DNA from: Phycisphaerae bacterium
Lineage (GTDB): Bacteria > Planctomycetota > Phycisphaerae > Tepidisphaerales > Tepidisphaeraceae
Length of the DNA stretch: 61,240 bases
NCBI GenBank assembly: GCA_025936175.1
Contig: JAICTV010000004.1
Coordinates: 1 to 61,240 of the forward strand
Reading direction: 5' to 3'
This document shows, in pieces, positions 13,309-51,526 of this stretch (the stretch's first letter is position 1; each line of letters begins with the position of its first letter). The notes below the pieces were generated by a model. It worked only from the letters and a program-made list of their open reading frames with translations, was not told where the DNA came from and did not search any database. The translations under genes were made by a program, and so were the position numbers.

Positions 13309-13336
13309 TTGCACATTCGTGATCACGCCGCTGCAA
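13309..13336. promoter_or_regulatory. 28-bp two-tier palindrome, operator candidate (copy 1)
   Basis: TTGCA-cattc-GTGATCAC-gccgc-TGCAA: an inner 8-bp palindrome flanked symmetrically by TTGCA/TGCAA. The same architecture recurs at 44283-44310. It ends 31 bases before the ATG at 13368, which carries a strong RBS. Confidence 0.65.
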
Positions 13337-13367
13337 TCGCGCGGGATGGGTAAGGAGGCATTGCGCC

Positions 13368-13625
13368 ATGTATCAGATTGATCGCACCCATCGTGTCCGT
13401 GTCGGCTTCGCGCGCGTTTTGCTCGAGGAGTTCCTCGCCCGCGCGGCACAGAACGAACCCAACCGAAGCCAACGAAAATCGCGCCGAAACCGCGTTTGCC
13501 GCACGCCAACGCGGTTTCACGCCGAAAACAGCCGCGCGCCGGTTGCAAAACGAACCCATTGCGGCGGGGAAAAGCGAACCCATCGCCCGCGGGTCTGGCC
13601 GTTGACCCGTCGCGGTCATGTTGCG
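13368..13625 (+). other. Open in-frame leader before the glycosidase-like gene, with degenerate GAACCCA words
   Basis: TAAGGAGG sits 9 bases before the ATG at 13368, and the frame stays open into the downstream gene. The leader would encode 86 basic residues (start MYQIDRTHRVRVGFARV) ahead of a signal peptide, which is unusual. Bases 13449-13590 contain repeated GAACCCA-type words (ACGAACCCAACC, ACGAACCCATTG, GCGAACCCATCG) typical of intergenic repeats. It is either a separate short peptide, a very long N-terminal extension, or an untranslated leader. Confidence 0.4.
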
Positions 13626-15353
13626 ATGGTGCCGGCCATGCTCCTCTGGCTTCTCCTCGCCCTCGTCCCCGCCCCCGCCCTCTTCGCCGCTCAGCCCGCG
13701 ATCAAGAACGTGATCGTCACCTTCCAGGACGGCACGCAGCAGCGCGTGGATGTGGCGGCGCCGTCGCAGAACGCGACGACGCAGCCCGCATCCACCCGGC
13801 CGGCGACAAAGCCAGTCGATCCCGCCGCCGCCCCGCCCGCGCGGCGGATCGAGCCGTTCCTCGGCGTCAACCTCGAGGCGCTGCGCGACTACGACCGCCA
13901 GTTCATGTTCATCGACGCGATGAAGACGTCGCGGAAATTCGGCAGCGCCAAAACGCCCTACGACGGCAAGGCCACCCTCGGCCCGGACGGCTGGCCCATG
14001 GACGATGCGGGCACGCTGGTCATGACCGATGTGAAGAACGTCAACGGCGTCTACCACTTCTTCGCCAGCGGCAGGTGCGAGCTCTCCACGCTCAACTCGC
14101 CGGCGCGGGTGCAGAACCTCGCGTACGACGCCAAGCGCGATCGCACCTACGCGGAAGTCGTCGTCGCCGCCGAGAGCGACAAGCAAATCACGCTGTCGCT
14201 GGCGTTCAAGAACACCGGCGGCGCGGGCCTGCGCGACATCAAGCTGCTGCGCCCCGGCTACGACAGCGACGCGCAGGTCTTCACCGGCGAATTCCTGCTC
14301 GCGCTGCACCCCTTCGGCGCGATCCGCTTCATGGATTACCTGCGCACGAACAACTCGAAGATCGCCAGGTGGGATGAACGCCCCAAGCAGACGGACGCGC
14401 AGTACTCGACCGAAAAAGGCGGGCCGTACGAAACCGCCATTCAACTGTGCAACTTCGCCGGCAAGGACGCGTGGCTCTGCGTGCCCGCGCTGGCGGATGA
14501 TGACTTCGTCCGCCAGCTCGGCCAGCTCGTGCGCGATCAGCTCCGTCCCGATCTGCACTGCTACGTCGAGTATTCCAACGAAGTCTGGAACGGCCAGTTC
14601 CAGCAATACAAGCAGAACAAGACCGCGGCGCAGCAGGAGGTGGCGGCGGGCGATCAGACGCTCAACGACGGCGGGAAGGACTCCAACGTCGAGTACTGGG
14701 CGCGCAAGCGCATCGCCAAGCGCGCCGTGGAGATCAAGAAACTGCTCGGCGACGACCCGCGCTTCCGCGTGGTCCTCGCCAGCCAGGTCGGATATCAGCC
14801 GCCGGGCGCGGTGCTGAAGATGCAGCTCGAGTACGTGGAGAAGTATTTCGGCCCGCCGAGCCAGTTCTTCTACGCCGTCGCCGGCGCGCCGTACTTCTCA
14901 CCCGGCAAGGACGAAGCCGATCCGGCGAAGAAGAAATGGTTCACCGAGCGCGACGACATCACCCCCGATCAGATCTGCGACCGTTTGCTCGCGCGCACCG
15001 GCACGAGCGCGAACGACAACGTCAAGGCGTTTCACGCGCTGGCGGACAAATATCGCCTGCGCAAGTTCGCCTACGAAGGCGGGCTCGATCTCCAGCAGTT
15101 CAACAAGCACCTCGACGTGAAGATCGCCAGCCAGTACGACCCGCGCGCGGGGAGGGCGGTGGAGGACTACCTGAACAAATGGTACGCCGCCGGCGGGGAC
15201 GCGATGTTCTACTTCGACCTCAGCGGCCGCTACACCAAGAGCGGGTACTGGGGGCTGACAGAAGATATTCGTGATCTCTCGGCGCCCAAGTACCAGGCCG
15301 CCGCGCGGGTCTCGCAGCGGTTAAGCGACACCGCCGCCACCGTCGGCAGGTGA
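13626..15353 (+). CDS. Exported glycosidase-like protein (clan GH-A-type features)
   Basis: The ATG at 13626 yields a signal peptide (AMLLWLLLALVPAPALFAA) and a 575-residue protein. A linker with ATTQPASTRPATKP follows. The catalytic-type segment VEYSNEVWNGQF (NE as acid/base in clan GH-A enzymes) lies near residue 315, preceded by DAWLCVPALADDDFV and followed by the likely nucleophile strand KFAYEGGLDL near 480. A polysaccharide-degrading role is inferred; the family is not assigned. The frame is open upstream to an ATG with a strong RBS at 13368. It ends 48 bases before the promoter of an orphan RNA. Confidence 0.72.
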   Translation: MVPAMLLWLLLALVPAPALFAAQPAIKNVIVTFQDGTQQRVDVAAPSQNATTQPASTRPATKPVDPAAAPPARRIEPFLGVNLEALRDYDRQFMFIDAMKTSRKFGSAKTPYDGKATLGPDGWPMDDAGTLVMTDVKNVNGVYHFFASGRCELSTLNSPARVQNLAYDAKRDRTYAEVVVAAESDKQITLSLAFKNTGGAGLRDIKLLRPGYDSDAQVFTGEFLLALHPFGAIRFMDYLRTNNSKIARWDERPKQTDAQYSTEKGGPYETAIQLCNFAGKDAWLCVPALADDDFVRQLGQLVRDQLRPDLHCYVEYSNEVWNGQFQQYKQNKTAAQQEVAAGDQTLNDGGKDSNVEYWARKRIAKRAVEIKKLLGDDPRFRVVLASQVGYQPPGAVLKMQLEYVEKYFGPPSQFFYAVAGAPYFSPGKDEADPAKKKWFTERDDITPDQICDRLLARTGTSANDNVKAFHALADKYRLRKFAYEGGLDLQQFNKHLDVKIASQYDPRAGRAVEDYLNKWYAAGGDAMFYFDLSGRYTKSGYWGLTEDIRDLSAPKYQAAARVSQRLSDTAATVGR

Positions 15354-43858: not shown

Positions 43859-44390
43859 GCGTTACTCCTTTCGCGCAACTTACGCTGACGGCGAGACATC
43901 GACTCGCAAGCGTCGTTGACCCTGCCGCAACAATTTGCGTGCCACGGCGAGCCCGACGTTACCGTCCGATAACATCGCGCGCGGCAAAGCTGTCGCATTC
44001 GTTGAAGCATCCTGCCGCCGCGATGGCGCAATATTTCGGTCTGCGTCTCGGTCTTTTTGCGTCCGATATCCGCCGCTTTGCGACAGTCTGCCGCAACGAT
44101 GACACTTCATCGCTCGCCGCCGTCACCCCGGCGCGGCCGTGGCACGAGCGCGCGAGGGCGCGCAAGTTCGCGATTGCACGATCGTGCGCGCGAAGCTGCA
44201 ACGCGATTCGGGTCTGAAACCTCAAATCCCAAATTTAAACTCCGCGAGTTTCCTCACGAACTGGACCGATCCCGTGGGCAGGTTGCATTTTCGTGATCAC
44301 ATTCGTGCAACGCGCCAGGACTGGTGAAGGCCGACGCAACGGGGCGTCGGCTGACGCGAGAACGTCACCACCAGCAGCGCGGAGCGCACG
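43859..44390. other. 530-base gap upstream of the capsid set
   Basis: No convincing gene. It contains the 28-bp palindrome copy 2, AT-rich words near 44219-44241 (CTCAAATCCCAAATTTAAAC) of the kind seen in argH at 50291, and a leader hairpin GCCGACGC-aacggg-GCGTCGGC at 44330-44351. Confidence 0.5.
44283..44310. promoter_or_regulatory. 28-bp two-tier palindrome, operator candidate (copy 2)
   Basis: TTGCA-ttttc-GTGATCAC-attcg-TGCAA, exactly the spacing of copy 1 at 13309. It lies 80 bases before the portal gene start; a stable hairpin (44330-44351) lies between them. Confidence 0.65.
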
Positions 44391-46124
44391 ATGAGCGACC
44401 AGCAAGCCGGAACGTCACACTTCCCCACCGTCGATGAGATCGAAGAGCGCGTCGAATCGCTCGTCTCGTGCGGGCGGCCGCGCTACCAGCGGCTTTGGGC
44501 TTATTACCGAAACCCGATGCGCGTCATCGGCTCCGCAGCCGGTGCGCAGGATCGTCCGTACCGACAGGCGCAGGAATGGGGACTGCCCTACCGCATCACC
44601 GGCGCCCGCGCCGGCGCCGCCATCACCCCGGTCGACAACGACTTTCACGCCGCCGCGCGGAAGGAAGTCGTCATCGAGAACGACATCGGCTGGCGGATCG
44701 AGACGATCGTCGATTACCTCTTCGGCAAGCCGCTGGTGCTGCGCTCGGCGGCGGTGGATCCGGCGCGGCGGGAAGTGATCGGCGAGCTGCTGCGGCAGAT
44801 CCTCGCCGCCAGCGGCGGGATCCTCTTCCTGCAACAGCTCGCGCTGCTCGGCAGCGTGTACGGGTTCGTCGACGTGCTGGTGAAGTTCGACGCCGACGCG
44901 GCGAGCGCGTTCGAGCCCGTCACCTGCGGAACGCAGGATCTCGGTCAACCTCCCGCGACGCCGTCGAAGCGCTCGGACGGAGGGGAGGGAGAGGGCGGCG
45001 GCGGGACCGCCGCCGGCGAAGCAGGGACCGCGCCGCGCGACGCGGCGGCGGCAGCCGCGGACGAATCGTCATCAGGAGCACAGGACGGTTCGTCCTCGAC
45101 GCCGCGTCATCTCGATTCGACTTCCGGATCGGCCCGGGCAGTGAGTCACCCCTCACCGCAGGCGATCGCACGCCTGGCCCGCATGGTCCGGCTGGAAATC
45201 GTCGAGCCGGCGCGGGCCCTGCCCTTTCTCGACCAGGAGAACTATCGCTGCCTGCTCGCGTACGGGCAGTGCTTCGAGATCGGATGCGCGGCGCCGCGCG
45301 GCGAGGGCGCGAATCCGCGGCGGACGTGGCTCGATCTGCTCAAGCGGATCACGTCGCGCTCGTCGCTCAAATCCTCCGACAGCGAGCGCACGTTCGTCGT
45401 CGAGATCATCACGCCGGCCGCATGGCAGCGCTACGAGAACGCCAAGGTCGTCGCCGCGGGCGAGAACTCGCTCGGCCGCGTGCCGGTCGTGCACATCCAG
45501 AACACCGCCGTGCCCTTCGCTTACTCCGGCGACAGCGACGTCGAGCCGCTCATCCCGCTGCAGGATGAGCTGAACACGCGGCTGAGCGATCGCGCCAACC
45601 GCATCACGCTGCAGAGCTTCAAGATGTATCTCGGCAAAGGGATCGAAGGCTTCGACACGATGCCGGTGGCGCCGGGACGCATGTGGATGACGGAGAACAC
45701 CAATGCCGACGTCATTCCCTTCGGCGGCGACTCGTCCTCCCCGAGCGAGGACGCGCATCTCTCTGACGTCCGCGAGGCGATCGACAAGAGCAGCGGCGTG
45801 ACGCCGATCGCCGCCGGCGCGATCAAGGGGCGCATCGGTCGGCTCACCAGCGCCGCCGCGCTGCGGGTGACGTTGCAGGCGCTGCTGGCCAAGACGGAGA
45901 AGAAGCGGACGACGTACGGGAACGCGATCGGACAGATCTGCGAGCTGGGGCTGGCGTGGCTCGATCGCGCCGGCGTCTTCCGCACCACGGCTGAGGAGCG
46001 GCAGATCGAGTTGAACTGGCCGAGCCCCCTGCCGGAGAACGAGCTGGAGAAGCTCACCGAAGCGCAGGCGAAAGCGCAGCTCGGCGTGCCGAAGGACGTG
46101 CTGCTGAAGGAGCTGGGGTACTGA
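44391..46124 (+). CDS. Phage-type portal protein
   Basis: The portal forms the DNA channel at one vertex of tailed-phage-like capsids. The SPP1 gp6-like pattern is seen: DIGWRIETIVDYLFGKPLVL near 100-119, the wing-crown part with VPVVHIQNTAVPFAYSG, SDVEPLIPLQDELNTRLSDR (clip/stem) near 383-402, and DVREAIDKSSGVTPIAAGAI near 460-479. A low-complexity insert of about 75 residues (GGEGEGGGGTAAGEAGTA, near 195-265) is unusual. GGAG lies 8 bases upstream. No terminase gene precedes it. Confidence 0.85.
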   Translation: MSDQQAGTSHFPTVDEIEERVESLVSCGRPRYQRLWAYYRNPMRVIGSAAGAQDRPYRQAQEWGLPYRITGARAGAAITPVDNDFHAAARKEVVIENDIGWRIETIVDYLFGKPLVLRSAAVDPARREVIGELLRQILAASGGILFLQQLALLGSVYGFVDVLVKFDADAASAFEPVTCGTQDLGQPPATPSKRSDGGEGEGGGGTAAGEAGTAPRDAAAAAADESSSGAQDGSSSTPRHLDSTSGSARAVSHPSPQAIARLARMVRLEIVEPARALPFLDQENYRCLLAYGQCFEIGCAAPRGEGANPRRTWLDLLKRITSRSSLKSSDSERTFVVEIITPAAWQRYENAKVVAAGENSLGRVPVVHIQNTAVPFAYSGDSDVEPLIPLQDELNTRLSDRANRITLQSFKMYLGKGIEGFDTMPVAPGRMWMTENTNADVIPFGGDSSSPSEDAHLSDVREAIDKSSGVTPIAAGAIKGRIGRLTSAAALRVTLQALLAKTEKKRTTYGNAIGQICELGLAWLDRAGVFRTTAEERQIELNWPSPLPENELEKLTEAQAKAQLGVPKDVLLKELGY

Positions 46125-46150
46125 CGCGCGTCCCGTCGGCTGACGGCGCT

Positions 46151-46220
46151 TTGCAGAGGCGACGGCTGCGTCGCCTTCTTCGAAACCAACAAACGCGGGC
46201 GACACAAGTGTCGCCCCTGC
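46151..46220. repeat. Two family A palindromes inside the capsid set
   Basis: GGCGACG-gct-GCGTCGCC (46158-46175) and GGGCGACAC-aa-GTGTCGCCC (46197-46216), the latter identical to 9078-9097. Host-type repeats thus lie within the viral-like genes. Confidence 0.8.
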
Positions 46221-46259
46221 ACGAAACCTCTTACGCGAAGAAAGAGAAAGGAGGAGGCC

Positions 46260-46490
46260 ATGTCTCAAGAGACACGGACTGATGCCGCGCCCGCGGTAGT
46301 CGCGGCGAACGAAGCTCCGGCGGAGGCGACGAAGATCGAGTCGCCGCCGCCGGCGCCGATGCCGCCGCGCGATGTCGATCCGCAGAACGAGCCGCGGGCG
46401 AAGCTGCTGCAGCTCGCCGCGGAGCTGATGCGGTCGCAGAACCGCCGGCTCGTCGCCGAATACCTGCGGCTGCGTCGTGCGATCGCGTGA
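46260..46490 (+). CDS. Small protein between portal and capsid genes (76 aa)
   Basis: A strong RBS (AAAGGAGGAGG) precedes the ATG. The first 45 residues are Ala/Pro/Glu-rich and disordered (PAEATKIESPPPAPMPPRDV); the last 30 form an amphipathic helix with LLQLAAELMRSQNRRLVAEY. Position between portal and capsid genes fits a scaffold-like or assembly protein, but it is far shorter than usual scaffolds. No family recognised. Confidence 0.6.
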   Translation: MSQETRTDAAPAVVAANEAPAEATKIESPPPAPMPPRDVDPQNEPRAKLLQLAAELMRSQNRRLVAEYLRLRRAIA

Positions 46491-46526
46491 TCGCACCGCC
46501 GAACGGGGACCCAATTTTATGAAGCG

Positions 46527-46612
46527 TGTCATCCTGAGCGGTACTCCGCGAAGGATCCCGGAGTCGATCGATTTTCCTGCGCCGAGATCCCTCGGAGTAC
46601 CTCGGGATGACA
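46527..46612. repeat. Family B fold-back repeat inside the capsid set
   Basis: TGTCATCCTGAGCGGTACTC and GAAGGATCCCGG are answered by GCCGAGATCCCTCGGAGTAC and CTCGGGATGACA. It occupies the gap before the capsid gene. Confidence 0.85.
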
Positions 46613-46659
46613 CGGGTCCGGGATTTCCTCAAAGGGAATAGATCGAAGGAGAGCACACC

Positions 46660-47817
46660 ATGGCATTCACGGGAAAAGCAACCTACACCGCCGGCAGCAC
46701 GCTGCCGGAGATCGCGGAAGACATCAGCGACCTGGTGGCGATCAACTCGCCGCACGAGACGCTGCTGCTCGATGCGCTGGGGGATCCGGCGCGGGCGGCG
46801 CATTCGACCGTCCACGAATGGCTCGAGGACGCGCTTCTGCCCAACGCCGATCAGATCAACGACAGCACCTACGCCAACGGCCTGACCGACACCACCTTCG
46901 TCGTCGATCACGCCGACCGCTTCCGCGTCGGCGATCAGATCAGGCTCGAGACGCAGGCGGAGATCATGCTGGTCACCGGCGTGAACACGGGAACGAACAC
47001 GCTCACGGTGGTGCGCGGCTACGGCGGCTCGACGGCCGAGAACCTGTACGACGATGCGCCGGTCATCATCCTCGGCAACGCCGCGCTGGAGGGTGACGAC
47101 GCCTCCGACGTTCGCTTCACCGCGCGCTCGCGCAACACCAATTACACGCAGATCTTCACTTCGACGGTCGAAGTGAGCGGCTCGGAGCTGGCGGTGCGAC
47201 AGGTGGGCGTGCGGGATGAGCTGGATTACCAGAAGGTCGCGCGGACGCGCGAGCTGCTGCGCGACCTGGAGAACTCGGTGATCAACGGCCGGGCGCCGGC
47301 GGCGACGCCGGAGGGATCGTCATCTGTTCGCCGCACCATGCGCGGGCTGCGGCAGTTCATCGCGACCAACGTCTTCAAGGTGGGCGTGGGCGATTTCCCG
47401 GGCGACGTCTTCCTCACCGAGGAACAGCTCAACCTCGCGCTGCGCGGCATCTGGGAGCAGAGCAACGGGCACGTGGATCTGATCGTCGTCGGCGGACCGG
47501 AGAAGCGGCAGATCAACCAGTTCGTCGCCGTGAACCGCCACTTCACGCCGCAGAGCGACACCTTCCGCGATCGCGTGATCGCGTACGAGAGCGACTTCGG
47601 CGTCTGCCGGATCGTGCTCAGTCGCTGGGTGCCCAGCGGCTGCGTGCTGCTGCTGGATTCCAGCCGCATCGAGGTGATGCCGCTGGCCGGGCGGAGCTTC
47701 CAGTACAAGCCGCTCGCCGCCACGGGCGACCGCGAGAGCGGGCAGGTCGTCGGCGAGTACACGCTCGAGCTGCGCAATGAGAACGCGCACGGGATCATCC
47801 AGGGACTGGGGAACTGA
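46660..47817 (+). CDS. Major capsid protein, SU10/DUF5309-like
   Basis: This family has the HK97 fold and builds phage heads. The pattern is recognisable: N-terminal KATYTAGSTLPEIAEDISDL and SPHETLLLDALGDPARA, an inserted beta domain at about 75-145 (TDTTFVVDHADRFRVGDQIR), then NTNYTQIFTSTVEVSGSELA, the long helix with RTRELLRDLENSVINGRA near 190-207, and a C-terminal beta part with GEYTLELRNENAHGIIQG. Length is 385 aa. AAGGAG lies 9-10 bases upstream. It seems complete with no frameshift. Confidence 0.85.
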   Translation: MAFTGKATYTAGSTLPEIAEDISDLVAINSPHETLLLDALGDPARAAHSTVHEWLEDALLPNADQINDSTYANGLTDTTFVVDHADRFRVGDQIRLETQAEIMLVTGVNTGTNTLTVVRGYGGSTAENLYDDAPVIILGNAALEGDDASDVRFTARSRNTNYTQIFTSTVEVSGSELAVRQVGVRDELDYQKVARTRELLRDLENSVINGRAPAATPEGSSSVRRTMRGLRQFIATNVFKVGVGDFPGDVFLTEEQLNLALRGIWEQSNGHVDLIVVGGPEKRQINQFVAVNRHFTPQSDTFRDRVIAYESDFGVCRIVLSRWVPSGCVLLLDSSRIEVMPLAGRSFQYKPLAATGDRESGQVVGEYTLELRNENAHGIIQGLGN

Positions 47818-47838
47818 CGCCGGATGACAGCGTGAATG

Positions 47839-47922
47839 GGTGACAAGGTGACAAGGTGACAAAAAGCGAAGCAGCGGATCCGGCTTCTTCACCTTGTCAC
47901 CAAGTCACCTTGTCACCTTGTC
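47839..47922. repeat. Fold-back repeat of GTGACAAG words
   Basis: GGGTGACAAGGTGACAAGGT with GACAAAAAG is answered by CACCTTGTCACCAAGTCACC with TTGTCACCTTGTC. Words of 8 bases are repeated in tandem in each arm. Confidence 0.9.
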
Positions 47923-47941
47923 TCTTTGAGAGGAGCACGAC

Positions 47942-48589
47942 ATGACCTTCTGCACCGACATCGACCTGCTCCACTGGGAGCCGAATCTCTTGCGCGACGC
48001 GGCGTTCGCGTCGCAGACGCTTTTGAGCGGCAGCGGCAACCTCGCGGACACGACGTTCACGATCTCTTCCGGATCGTTCACCGCCGCGCACGTCACGCCG
48101 AATCAGGTAATCGTGCTCACCGGCGCGACGAGCGGCTGCTATCCGATCGTCACCGTGGACAGCGCGACGCAGCTTACGATCAGCGCGCTGTACGACGGGC
48201 TGTTTCCGACCAGCGGCGATCCGACCGCGACATCGGTCGGCACGGCGACGGGGCTCTCGTACGTCGTCCGCACCTTCTGGCCGCAGCGCCGCGTCGTCAG
48301 CGAGCTGCTTATGCAGGCGGCGGGTCTTGATCCGACCGACGACGCGGCGGCGACGATCATCAACCCGACTGCCCTCCGCCGCGCGTGCACGCTCGGGACG
48401 CTGCACATGATCTACTCCGCGCTGGCGGCGGCCGCCACCGAGCCGTCCAACCTGGACATCCGGGTGCAGCTCTACGAGCAGCTTTATCGCAACGCGTTCC
48501 GCAACGCGCGGGTGGAGATCGACCGCGACGGCGACGGCAAGGCGGACGGCGCGGCGTCGCTCAACGTGCTGGAATTCCAGCGGATCTGA
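47942..48589 (+). CDS. Connector/adaptor-like protein of the capsid set
   Basis: A beta-rich half (TTFTISSGSFTAAHVTPNQV, YPIVTVDSATQLTISALYDG) resembles the insert domain of the capsid protein. A helical half follows (RRVVSELLMQAAGLDPTDDA, then LRRACTLGTLHMIYSALAAA), as in head-tail connectors of the gp6 type. Near residue 195 is DRDGDGKADG, an EF-hand/dockerin-like calcium loop, unusual in such proteins. AGAGGAG lies 7 bases upstream. A structural head role is inferred from position. Confidence 0.6.
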   Translation: MTFCTDIDLLHWEPNLLRDAAFASQTLLSGSGNLADTTFTISSGSFTAAHVTPNQVIVLTGATSGCYPIVTVDSATQLTISALYDGLFPTSGDPTATSVGTATGLSYVVRTFWPQRRVVSELLMQAAGLDPTDDAAATIINPTALRRACTLGTLHMIYSALAAAATEPSNLDIRVQLYEQLYRNAFRNARVEIDRDGDGKADGAASLNVLEFQRI

Positions 48590-48613
48590 AAATCGATCGA
48601 GGGGAGGTGAACC

Positions 48614-48904
48614 GTGTCGTTGATTTCACTGCTGGCCGACGTCGTGAATGCGCCGATCGACAGCGTCACCAGCTTCGGCGCTGCCGGGCTGATGGGCGCG
48701 ATGTGGCTGTGGGAGCGGCGGACGAATCAGAAACGCGAGGCGCAGATCGACGAAGCGCACGCGCGGATCCTGGGCGATCGCGTGCAGCTCGAGCAGCTCA
48801 TGAGCGTCGTCCGCCAGAACGCCGAGGCGATCACGCGGCTGTGCACCACGCAGGACCAGTTCCTGCGCCAACTCGATCGCACGGCGGAGAGGAGCAAGCC
48901 ATGA
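48614..48904 (+). CDS. Small membrane protein with coiled coil, holin/i-spanin-like position
   Basis: GTG start with GGGAGGTG 6 bases upstream. A short hydrophobic stretch (TSFGAAGLMGAMWLW) near 19-33 is followed by a charged coiled coil (KREAQIDEAHARILGDRVQL). Its stop overlaps the next gene, a lipoprotein, as ATGA. A small TM/coiled-coil protein coupled to a lipoprotein recalls two-component spanins (i-spanin plus o-spanin), but sequence similarity cannot be shown here. Confidence 0.55.
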   Translation: MSLISLLADVVNAPIDSVTSFGAAGLMGAMWLWERRTNQKREAQIDEAHARILGDRVQLEQLMSVVRQNAEAITRLCTTQDQFLRQLDRTAERSKP

Positions 48905-49332
48905 AACGCCTGATTTTGTTGATGCCGCTCGCAGTCGCGGGATGTACGAGGTGGACCGCCGCGCAGACGGATCTTGTCACGCAGGCGCGGCGCGGGATCG
49001 CGCTCGTGCGGCAGGACGATCAGCAGCGCGACAAAACCGCGCAGGAGCTGAATCGGCTGCGACGTCAGCGTCTGGACGAAGCGTTCGACGCGGACGTGCG
49101 CGAGCGGGAGAAAGATGGCTCGATCGACGGCGACTGGGTGATCGACGCCCGCCGCGCGTATGCGGTCGCGCTCGATGCGTTCGCCACGACGCAAGCGGCG
49201 GACGCCGCCGCCGCGGCGATGCGCAAGCGCAACCTGGCGGCGATCGATGCGGCGCTGGAGCGGTTGCAATACCTGCAATCCGTTCAACTGAAGTTGATCC
49301 CGAACATTCCTGAACTGGAGGGGACGCGATGA
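48901..49332 (+). CDS. Lipoprotein of the capsid set, o-spanin-like position
   Basis: The signal MKRLILLMPLAVAGC has lipobox AVAGC (Cys15). The mature part is mostly alpha-helical and charged (RQDDQQRDKTAQELNRLRRQ; DAAAAAMRKRNLAAIDAALE). It starts in ATGA overlap with the small membrane protein and ends in ATGA overlap with the next ORF, so the three are translated together. An outer-membrane partner of the preceding protein is possible. Confidence 0.6.
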   Translation: MKRLILLMPLAVAGCTRWTAAQTDLVTQARRGIALVRQDDQQRDKTAQELNRLRRQRLDEAFDADVREREKDGSIDGDWVIDARRAYAVALDAFATTQAADAAAAAMRKRNLAAIDAALERLQYLQSVQLKLIPNIPELEGTR

Positions 49333-49583
49333 ATACGATCGATCTGAAGGAAGAAGTGCGTCGCGCGTTGTCGCGCGAGTGGCCGGCGTTCGCGGCGGCG
49401 CATCCGCACCTGGCGAACGTCGTGGACGAAACGCTGTTGCTGGAGCCGGCCATGAAGGCGCTGGACGAAGACGACGAATTCCAGCAGACGATGCGGGCCG
49501 CCGCCGAGATCGGCGCGGCGGGCGAAGTCGTCGCCGGCGTCGTCTCGCGCGTCATCAACAAATGGCTCCTGCAACTGATCTGA
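49329..49583 (+). CDS. Small helical protein ending the capsid set (84 aa)
   Basis: The ATGA overlap with the lipoprotein gene indicates coupling; GGAGG lies 6-7 bases upstream. The sequence is helical: TIDLKEEVRRALSREWPAFA, then TMRAAAEIGAAGEVVAGVVS with a C-terminal RVINKWLLQLI that could associate with the membrane. Not recognised. It is the last gene with the compact phage-like arrangement. Confidence 0.55.
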   Translation: MNTIDLKEEVRRALSREWPAFAAAHPHLANVVDETLLLEPAMKALDEDDEFQQTMRAAAEIGAAGEVVAGVVSRVINKWLLQLI

Positions 49584-49618
49584 AAACGGGCCGCCGCTGC
49601 GCGGGTATTATTGAATCC

Positions 49619-49951
49619 ATGCCACGTCCCGGCACCCAGGCCGATCTTTACCTCAACGACAAGCGCGTCGGCATCGTGCACGTGCAGCGCCGGGAGGATT
49701 CGTGGGCGCACGGGCGGTTCGAGCCGGACGAAGGGTTCGCGGAGTTCGCGCCGCTGTTTGGGCGGTGGTCTTTGCTGATCCACGCCGACGGCGAAGACAA
49801 TTTGAGCGACGCCGCGGGCGAGGAGCTGCGGCGGACGGAGTACGAGATCGATCGCATTGCCGCCAAGCTGTTCTTTCCACAGACGAAGACCTGGGTGCGG
49901 TGTGCACAGGTCAACATCGACGGAGAACTCATCGAGTGGAAGTGTTATTGA
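49619..49951 (+). CDS. Small protein of unknown function (110 aa)
   Basis: The ATG at 49619 gives MPRPGTQADLYLNDKRVGIV; the frame upstream of this is antisense-like and overlaps the previous gene. The product is a compact beta-rich protein (WAHGRFEPDEGFAEF, GRWSLLIHADGED) with C-terminal QVNIDGELIEWKCY. No RBS is clear. It lies between the capsid set and argH and shows no sign of viral ancestry. Confidence 0.6.
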   Translation: MPRPGTQADLYLNDKRVGIVHVQRREDSWAHGRFEPDEGFAEFAPLFGRWSLLIHADGEDNLSDAAGEELRRTEYEIDRIAAKLFFPQTKTWVRCAQVNIDGELIEWKCY

Positions 49952-49952
49952 G

Positions 49953-50038
49953 GAGGAGCCAGAAGTCAGAAGCCAGGAGCCAGAAGTGAGCTGTGCGGCT
50001 TCCCCGTCCTGGCTCCTGGCTTCTGGCTCCTGACTCCT
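49953..50038. repeat. Heptad fold-back repeat (GAAGCCAGGAGCCA)
   Basis: AGGAGCCAGAAGTCAGAAGC with CAGGAGCCAGAAGT is answered by CTGGCTCCTGGCTTCTGGCT with CCTGACTCCTG. Same design as 38650 with other words. Confidence 0.9.
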
Positions 50039-50056
50039 GCGCGTATCATCCCCGCC

Positions 50057-51526
50057 ATGGCTTCCGATCCTCCGCAACCCCCCCTGAAATCCTGGCAAGC
50101 GCGAATCGGCGAGGCGACCGACGCGCTCGCGGCGTCGTTCGTGGAATCGATCAGCTATGACCGGCGGCTGTACAAGCACGATATCGCGGGGTCGATCGCG
50201 CACGCGACCATGCTCGCCAAGGTCAATCTCATCACCGAGGCCGAGCGCGATACGATCATCGAGGGGCTGAAATCGATCGAGCGGGATATCGAATCTGAAA
50301 ATTTCAAATTTGATATTTCAAATGAAGACATCCACATGGTCGTCGAGGCCGAGCTGATCAAACGTGTCGGCGAGCCGGGACGAAAGCTGCATACGGGACG
50401 GAGCCGGAATGATCAGGTGGCGTTGGATCTGGCTCTGTGGATCGACGATGCCCAAGGGACGCTCGCGCACAATATCGAATTGCTGCAGTTGTCCTTTCTC
50501 GAACTCGCGAAACGCAGTGCCGATGTCGTGATGCCATCGTTCACGCACCTGCAACGTGCGCAACCGGTTTCCGCGGGTGCCGAATCGCTCGCATGGTGCA
50601 CGATGTTTGAGCAGCACAAGACGGCGCTGCACCAACTCGGTCACACCGATCTTGTGACGTCGCCTCTTGGAAGCGGTGCGATTGCCGGATCCTCCTTACC
50701 GCTCGATACGGGCGTCACCGCCGATTACCTCGGCTTCCACGACTGGCGCAAGACGGACATCATCACACCTGCCAACAGCATCGAGCGCACCGCGTCGCGC
50801 GAGCAGGCCTGTCGTTTCGTGTTCGAGTGCGCCATGATCTCCCAGCACCTCTCCCGCTGGGCGGAGCAGTGGATCATTTACATGTCCACCGAGTTCGGCT
50901 TCATCCACATCGCCGACAAGTACACCACCTCGTCGTCGATGATGCCGCAGAAGCGCAACCCGGACATGCTCGAGCTGATCCGCGGGCGGTGCGGGAACGT
51001 GTACGGCGACCTCTTCGCGCTGATGACGATCCTTAAGGGCCTGCCGATCGGCTACAACCGCGACCTGCAGGAGGACAAGCGCATCGTCTTCCGCGCGTAT
51101 GACACCGTCTCCTCCTGCCTGACGATGGCGGCGGCGATCGTCTCATCGGCGCGGTACGCGAAAGAGACGATCGAGCCGACGCTGGAGCGCGGGTTTCTCG
51201 ATGCGACCTCGCTGGCGGAGTATCTGGTCACCAAGGGGATTCCGTTTCGGACGGCGCATCACATCGTCGGGACGCTGGTCGCGCGGTGCGAGAAGGAAGG
51301 GAAGCATGCGCTGTCGCAATTGAGCGTCGCGGAGATGAACGAGACGATCGCGGAAGTCCTTCGCAGCCATCAGGGGGGGCGCGAGTCCGTGGTCCTCAGC
51401 GACGACGTCTATACCGCGCTCGGAGCGAAGAACGTCGTCGCGCGCTACAAGAGCGCGGGAGCGGCTGGAGGAAAACCCTTCGAAGAACAACTCGCGAGCT
51501 GGAAGAAGCGATTAGGAATGGAGTAA
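50057..51526 (+). CDS. argH: Argininosuccinate lyase
   Basis: Splits argininosuccinate into arginine and fumarate, the last step of arginine synthesis. The fumarase-superfamily signature SSMMPQKRNPDMLEL is near 294-308. The active-site regions HTGRSRNDQVALDL and TDLVTSPLGSGAIAGSSLPL are intact. Length (489 aa) is normal, and the C-terminal HxGREV-type block reads HQGGRESV. Bases 50291-50327 are an AT-rich repeat-like stretch (GAATCTGAAAATTTCAAATT) coding ESENFKFDISN in frame within an otherwise GC-rich gene. Confidence 0.95.
   Translation: MASDPPQPPLKSWQARIGEATDALAASFVESISYDRRLYKHDIAGSIAHATMLAKVNLITEAERDTIIEGLKSIERDIESENFKFDISNEDIHMVVEAELIKRVGEPGRKLHTGRSRNDQVALDLALWIDDAQGTLAHNIELLQLSFLELAKRSADVVMPSFTHLQRAQPVSAGAESLAWCTMFEQHKTALHQLGHTDLVTSPLGSGAIAGSSLPLDTGVTADYLGFHDWRKTDIITPANSIERTASREQACRFVFECAMISQHLSRWAEQWIIYMSTEFGFIHIADKYTTSSSMMPQKRNPDMLELIRGRCGNVYGDLFALMTILKGLPIGYNRDLQEDKRIVFRAYDTVSSCLTMAAAIVSSARYAKETIEPTLERGFLDATSLAEYLVTKGIPFRTAHHIVGTLVARCEKEGKHALSQLSVAEMNETIAEVLRSHQGGRESVVLSDDVYTALGAKNVVARYKSAGAAGGKPFEEQLASWKKRLGME

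Follow-up and report, generated by a model that had tools for sequence, protein, structure and literature searches.

A 28-bp palindrome at the head of a dispersed, modular intergenic element in a Phycisphaerae bacterium

Described systems and the palindromes in the window

Pneumococcal BOX elements are modular intergenic repeats. The element described here resembles them in being a mosaic of modules in intergenic space, but its sequence is unrelated and its head shows a constraint like that of an operator or promoter. REP/REPIN sequences with their RAYT genes (PMC3733652, PMC3116915) are similar to it in having a short extragenic palindrome in many copies, often just downstream of genes. The present element differs from them in being far longer and modular, with boxA, and in its lack of the GTAG tag and of hairpin covariation. 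In other bacteria, boxA is described as protecting untranslated RNA from Rho, in rRNA and CRISPR arrays (PMC12691694, PMC5725501). It is reported upstream of CRISPR arrays, on long untranslated RNA (Stringer et al. 2020, cited in PMC12691694), and is known upstream of suhB (PMC5725501). The elements likewise use boxA outside rRNA, but contain no CRISPR repeats. They share GCTCTTTGACAAGTGAATA with the rRNA leader, and in both cases boxA lies shortly downstream of a putative promoter. Unlike the leader, the elements continue into short repeats that are not rRNA and occur in dozens of copies, and antitermination is for them a putative function.

The window, the whole 61,240-nucleotide stretch that was analysed, contains two exact copies of the pattern TTGCA-N5-GTGATCAC-N5-TGCAA (P) in a pattern scan (Table 1). 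The initial annotation had reported this identical 28-base, two-tier palindrome at both places and considered the double occurrence to be beyond chance. When the dinucleotides of the window are shuffled, 0.02 matches are expected at ≤3 mismatches, which supports that view. A third, degenerate P with 3 mismatches lies 109 bp ahead of the 44283 copy. The TTC noted ahead of the inner box in both exact copies is real and is also found genome-wide (positions 8-10: T 39/39, T 36/39, C 35/39). The ATG assigned to a portal gene downstream of the second copy, at 44391, is correct and its product matches SPP1_portal.

Table 1. Positions of the palindromes, associated modules and downstream genes in the window
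Feature	Position	Strand	Basis
P, exact copy, head of element; TTGCA-CATTC-GTGATCAC-GCCGC-TGCAA	13309..13336	+	
G-rich stretch GGGATGGGTAAGGAGG after P; putative transcription start, Shine-Dalgarno-like	13343..13358	+	aligned copies
Start-like ATG where other copies have rRNA-type boxA; the downstream gene probably starts elsewhere	13368..13370	+	
Non-coding element body; CAAAACGAACCCA-type units at 13449-13461, 13546-13558 and 13570-13582	13337..13600	+	
Downstream gene from its likelier start; signal-peptide-like MLLWLLLALVPAPALFA, no recognised family	13638..15353	+	sequence reading
P, degenerate, inverted relative to the 44283 copy; TTGCA-GCTTC-GCGCGCAC-GATCG-TGCAA on the - strand	44174..44201	-	
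AT-rich AAATCT/CAAATTT-type module between the paired P copies	44206..44250	.	
P, exact copy, without downstream boxA and repeat modules; TTGCA-TTTTC-GTGATCAC-ATTCG-TGCAA	44283..44310	+	
Portal protein gene, next downstream of the 44283 P	44391..46124	+	

Copies and anatomy of the element

The two window palindromes are members of a set of about 60 copies that form the front end of a non-coding element dispersed between genes. The genome holding the window is a 5.5 Mb draft of 384 contigs (86% complete), and P occurs in it 36 times exactly, 45 times at ≤1 mismatch and 62 times at ≤3 mismatches; the reversed-pattern control gives 1. The genome-wide scan that the initial annotation had suggested therefore shows that P is not a private switch of two genes. 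A scan of 84,980 species genomes found 4 isolated exact matches in other species, and the scanned viral contigs contained none. At ≤1 mismatch P was found in 0 of 60 relatives. A looser pattern has 56 matches here and 0-3 in 25 genomes of the same family (reversed control 0-2), the genus being represented by this one genome in all comparisons. Conservation of the site near orthologues, by which the proposed regulon was to be judged, is largely absent, since these 25 genomes are at background. An exact search of 294 genomes of the phylum found the CAAAACGAACCCA unit in this genome alone, and a phylum-wide spread of the unit was dropped. The element loci L009 and L026, on the small contigs C37 and C208, are nearly identical and probably represent variant strains in the assembly.

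The element is modular, intergenic, non-coding and about 330 bp long, and P is its directional 5' head. About 50 loci were fetched and oriented by their downstream sequence under rules set by the authors, and the 44283 copy was re-oriented by eye. The order of modules is P, TC-GCGCGC-GGGATATAGGGAG (G-rich), a boxA or a start-like site with an RBS, repeats with a period of about 10 bp and CAAAACGAACCCA units. The slot after GGGATATAGGGAG is occupied by boxA GCTCTTTGACAAYYGAATAG in 22/47 copies and by an ATG/GTG-type start in 17/47. The ~10-bp-period repeats are of several kinds (TGCAACGCCA, TTCAGAAATC, GTCCGGAAAT), and the CAAAACGAACCCA-type units are commonly 87 bp apart. Similarity between loci starts about 5-10 bp ahead of P and fades about 330 bp past its start. 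The AT-rich module is sometimes found upstream of the element together with a second or relic P, and it also occurs at other loci where P is paired or displaced. The best non-identical pairs of elements are 66-83% identical, the top pair over 205 bp; therefore, copying was not recent. An Rfam search of the elements gave no match, and a literature search on repeat sequences or intergenic repeats in Planctomycetes found nothing relevant.

The elements have no 3-base periodicity (0.23-0.25 at lag 3, versus 0.33 in control windows). The value at lag 10 is raised, at 0.36 versus about 0.26, in both the boxA and the ATG types. The frames of the units are random relative to the ATG of the element. 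The missing periodicity and the random frames led to the rejection of a small coding ORF, and the element encodes no conserved peptide. Since the elements are non-coding, the ATG at 13368, which had been taken as a gene start, is part of the element in which it sits. The in-frame ATG at 13638 opens a signal-peptide-like sequence and is the likelier start of the downstream gene. The label 'glycosidase' given to this gene is not backed by a family search; its product has no Pfam match above the cut-off and no solved relative.

Neighbouring genes and constraint on the palindrome

The flanking genes, taken from the authors' own gene calls, have the orientations ++ 16, +- 14, -+ 10 and -- 5 (upstream and downstream, in the direction of the element). 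The downstream gene is co-oriented in 26/45 cases and opposite in 19/45 (about 40%), and 14 copies lie between convergent genes. The 26 downstream proteins match 40 Pfam families, and none of the 25 families listed occurs in more than one protein. Since the orientations are mixed and the families unshared, the neighbours do not form a coherent regulon. The initial annotation had proposed P as a classical operator through which one regulator controls a polysaccharide gene and the capsid genes. Generalized to a global regulator of the neighbouring protein genes, this reading has in its favor a strong intergenic palindrome that in some cases closely precedes a gene, as with the portal gene. However, the copies between convergent genes have no promoter to control, the neighbours have no common function, P is tied to the element's own modules at a fixed distance and its constraint is asymmetric; a global operator is therefore unlikely. 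The two-gene regulon was rejected on the basis of copy number (about 60), unrelated flanking genes and orientation. The portal and SU10-type capsid genes themselves are confirmed in the window.

The region 44391-50057 contains an SPP1-type portal gene and an SU10-type major capsid gene in a short cluster of head genes, with an argininosuccinate lyase-type gene directly after it. The proteins scanned included no recognisable terminase. An inverted repetitive GAAGCCAGGAGCCAGAAG / CTGGCTCCTGGCTTCTGG stretch lies at 49955-50040, just ahead of the lyase gene.

P starts ≤134 bp past the stop codon of a co-oriented upstream gene in 28/31 cases. This placement would suit a non-autonomous, REP- or MITE-like mobile repeat with P as its terminal recognition site, where a transposase acts in trans and recognition by the enzyme accounts for the conservation. 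The elements are also dispersed, intergenic, modular and genus-specific, some P copies are paired about 100 bp apart, and one of the four Y1_Tnp (RAYT-type) genes in the genome is about 290 bp from a P variant. However, that RAYT gene has different palindromic repeats of its own and the other three have no P nearby. The GTAG tag is found in 0/47 copies and CGTC in 7/47, there is no covariation of a hairpin and the best alignments include no recent near-identical dispersed copies. Among 30 RAYT loci examined from four genomes of the same family, 3 have a boxA element nearby; all 3 are in G008 and none was seen in G003, G004 or G010. A mobile repeat is thus a possible but doubtful explanation, and is less likely than the promoter/operator reading.

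In 39 aligned copies, TTC precedes the inner box and RTTY follows it on the same strand, so the spacers are not free. The G at position 36 is invariant (39/39) and G44-G45 are found in 31/39 and 35/39. Since conservation in this set partly reflects how the copies were found, the test was repeated with boxA as the only anchor. This gave 28 sites, 24 of which have P upstream at 21-37 nt and 12 at exactly 23 nt. The boxA-anchored P is 95.6% identical over its 18 positions; almost no variation occurs in the outer arms or in the right inner half (TCAC), and the left inner half varies more. The inner box is GTGCGCAC in two elements. The identity of P exceeds the 66-83% of the best element alignments, which indicates that P is under constraint.

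P lies near upstream stop codons and adjoins boxA, as might an RNA hairpin at the 3' end of the upstream genes (a terminator, an mRNA stabiliser or a boxB-like partner of boxA), and one idealised version folds well at -12.5 kcal/mol. The real copies, including both in the window, fold no better than shuffles (z 0.01 and -0.44 for the window copies), the spacers do not covary (20/44 paired versus 20.6 expected) and there is no T-run. The hairpin was rejected by covariation and folding and is very improbable. The directional constraint, the missing stem covariation and the shuffle-level folding suggest that P is best seen as a double-stranded, orientation-dependent protein site. The reading of P as a regulator site thus holds insofar as the DNA is directional, strongly conserved and protein-site-like, and probably in a promoter region; joint control of two genes does not. 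The symmetry of a pair of dimers is imperfect: TTC and TT in the two spacers lie on one strand, and changes are tolerated in the left inner half.

A long palindrome in many copies on many contigs could also be a chromosome-organisation site, as parS, matS or Noc sites are, that happens to sit in intergenic repeats. The fixed orientation and distance of P to the downstream modules disagree with this, as does its absence from called genes except for one weak overlap, and this role is the least probable of those considered.

boxA and the proposed transcript

The boxA GCTCTTTGACAAGTGAATA of several elements is identical at 19/19 bases to the sequence preceding 16S rRNA in this genome, and it is on this match to the genome's own rRNA leader that it is classed as rRNA-type. 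The four boxA sites without P include the 16S leader (L075) and a spot between tRNA genes (L096). A direct search for 16S found none in the genome; Rfam found partial 16S genes at contig ends in two boxA loci. Among relatives, G008 has about 67 boxA matches and G004 has 18, some of which are rRNA leaders or other sites. G008 mostly has GCTATTTGACAACCGAATA, which is one core position off its own rRNA boxA. Its upstream sequence differs from P and has a TATTAT/TATAGT box directly before GGAGGG in 39/39 copies examined; this -10-like box with GGAGGG occupies the slot that matches GGGATATAGGGAG. Downstream of boxA there is a weak 10-bp peak in G008, and there are 10-12-bp peaks in the small number of copies from G004, G010 and G003. 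Since boxA and ~10-bp repeats are found in relatives with other heads, the boxA-led element seems to be family-wide, with P as its head in this genus. Synteny of the elements between G008 and this genome revealed no clear common locus except the 16S leader and RAYT paralogues. What looked like a coincidence of two sites is an element family spread over the genome, with boxA as a recognisable transcription signal that is not confined to one genus.

An alternative reading of P is TTGCAS-N17-TGCAAT, with G36 7 nt downstream; its spacing fits that of sigma-70 promoters (16-18 bp). TGCAAT is without the usual A at the second -10 position, TATA after P is about half conserved here and a TATTAT box is clear only in G008. 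The analogy with G008 and the G found where a start is expected make control of transcript initiation the most likely role of P in the element, either as a promoter core or as an activator or repressor site over the -35 region. The preferred explanation, with a probability of about 0.5, is that P serves as promoter/operator at the head of a transcription unit that is dispersed between genes and whose roughly 60 copies produce untranslated transcripts led by boxA or a start codon. A DNA-binding protein, which may be a dimeric regulator or an alternative sigma factor, would read P in one orientation and help RNA polymerase to initiate within the adjacent downstream GGGATATAGGGAG, which is G-rich. 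The short leader would carry the rRNA-type boxA and recruit NusB/S10, so that the untranslated RNA would be shielded from Rho. In other copies, a ribosome-binding site and start codon would take the position of boxA, and this alternation at one position may represent two ways of escaping Rho. The transcript would then pass through the ~10-bp-period repeats and the CAAAACGAACCCA units. Co-oriented real genes, such as those at 13638 and 44391, may fall under the control of P incidentally. The 44283 copy, which has no boxA or repeats, counts against this explanation, and no regulator or sigma factor is linked to P. Promoter activity, a P-reading protein, antitermination, the purpose of the transcript and any benefit to the cell are accordingly worded here as proposals, as distinct from the observed copy number, specificity, directional intergenic placement, module order, boxA identity and lack of coding signal.

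More tentatively, the family may keep dozens of intergenic untranslated units per genome, with rRNA-type boxA and ~10-11-bp repeats that differ by genus, and this genus may have placed them under one protein-recognised promoter switch, P. If so, the elements would make up a new class of non-coding RNA or DNA element that is regulated and antiterminated. The findings suggest that antitermination of the NusB type may act on many dispersed RNAs in these bacteria that are not translated. Because P is strictly conserved, it could be used as bait to identify the protein that recognises it.

Several other repeats were observed near boxA sites and elements. In G004, boxA GTTCTTTGACAAGTGAATA precedes a CRISPR-like array with the repeat GTCGCCCGCTCACACGCGGGCGTGGATTGAAAC (L146). 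In two G003 loci (L054 and L056), CAAAACGAACCCAAT units are in the C-terminal part of ORFs whose proteins have a AQKSTGPRTAAGKAKSALNALKHGLTA-like motif. A RAYT-type gene (L185, contig C160) is flanked by its own GAGGGTGACTGTCACCCTC palindromic repeats, and L015 has a similar repeat upstream of P. A further dispersed repeat, CTGAGGTACTCCGAAGCATCTG, together with its inverted copy, lies within or beside the elements at L011, L048 and L049.
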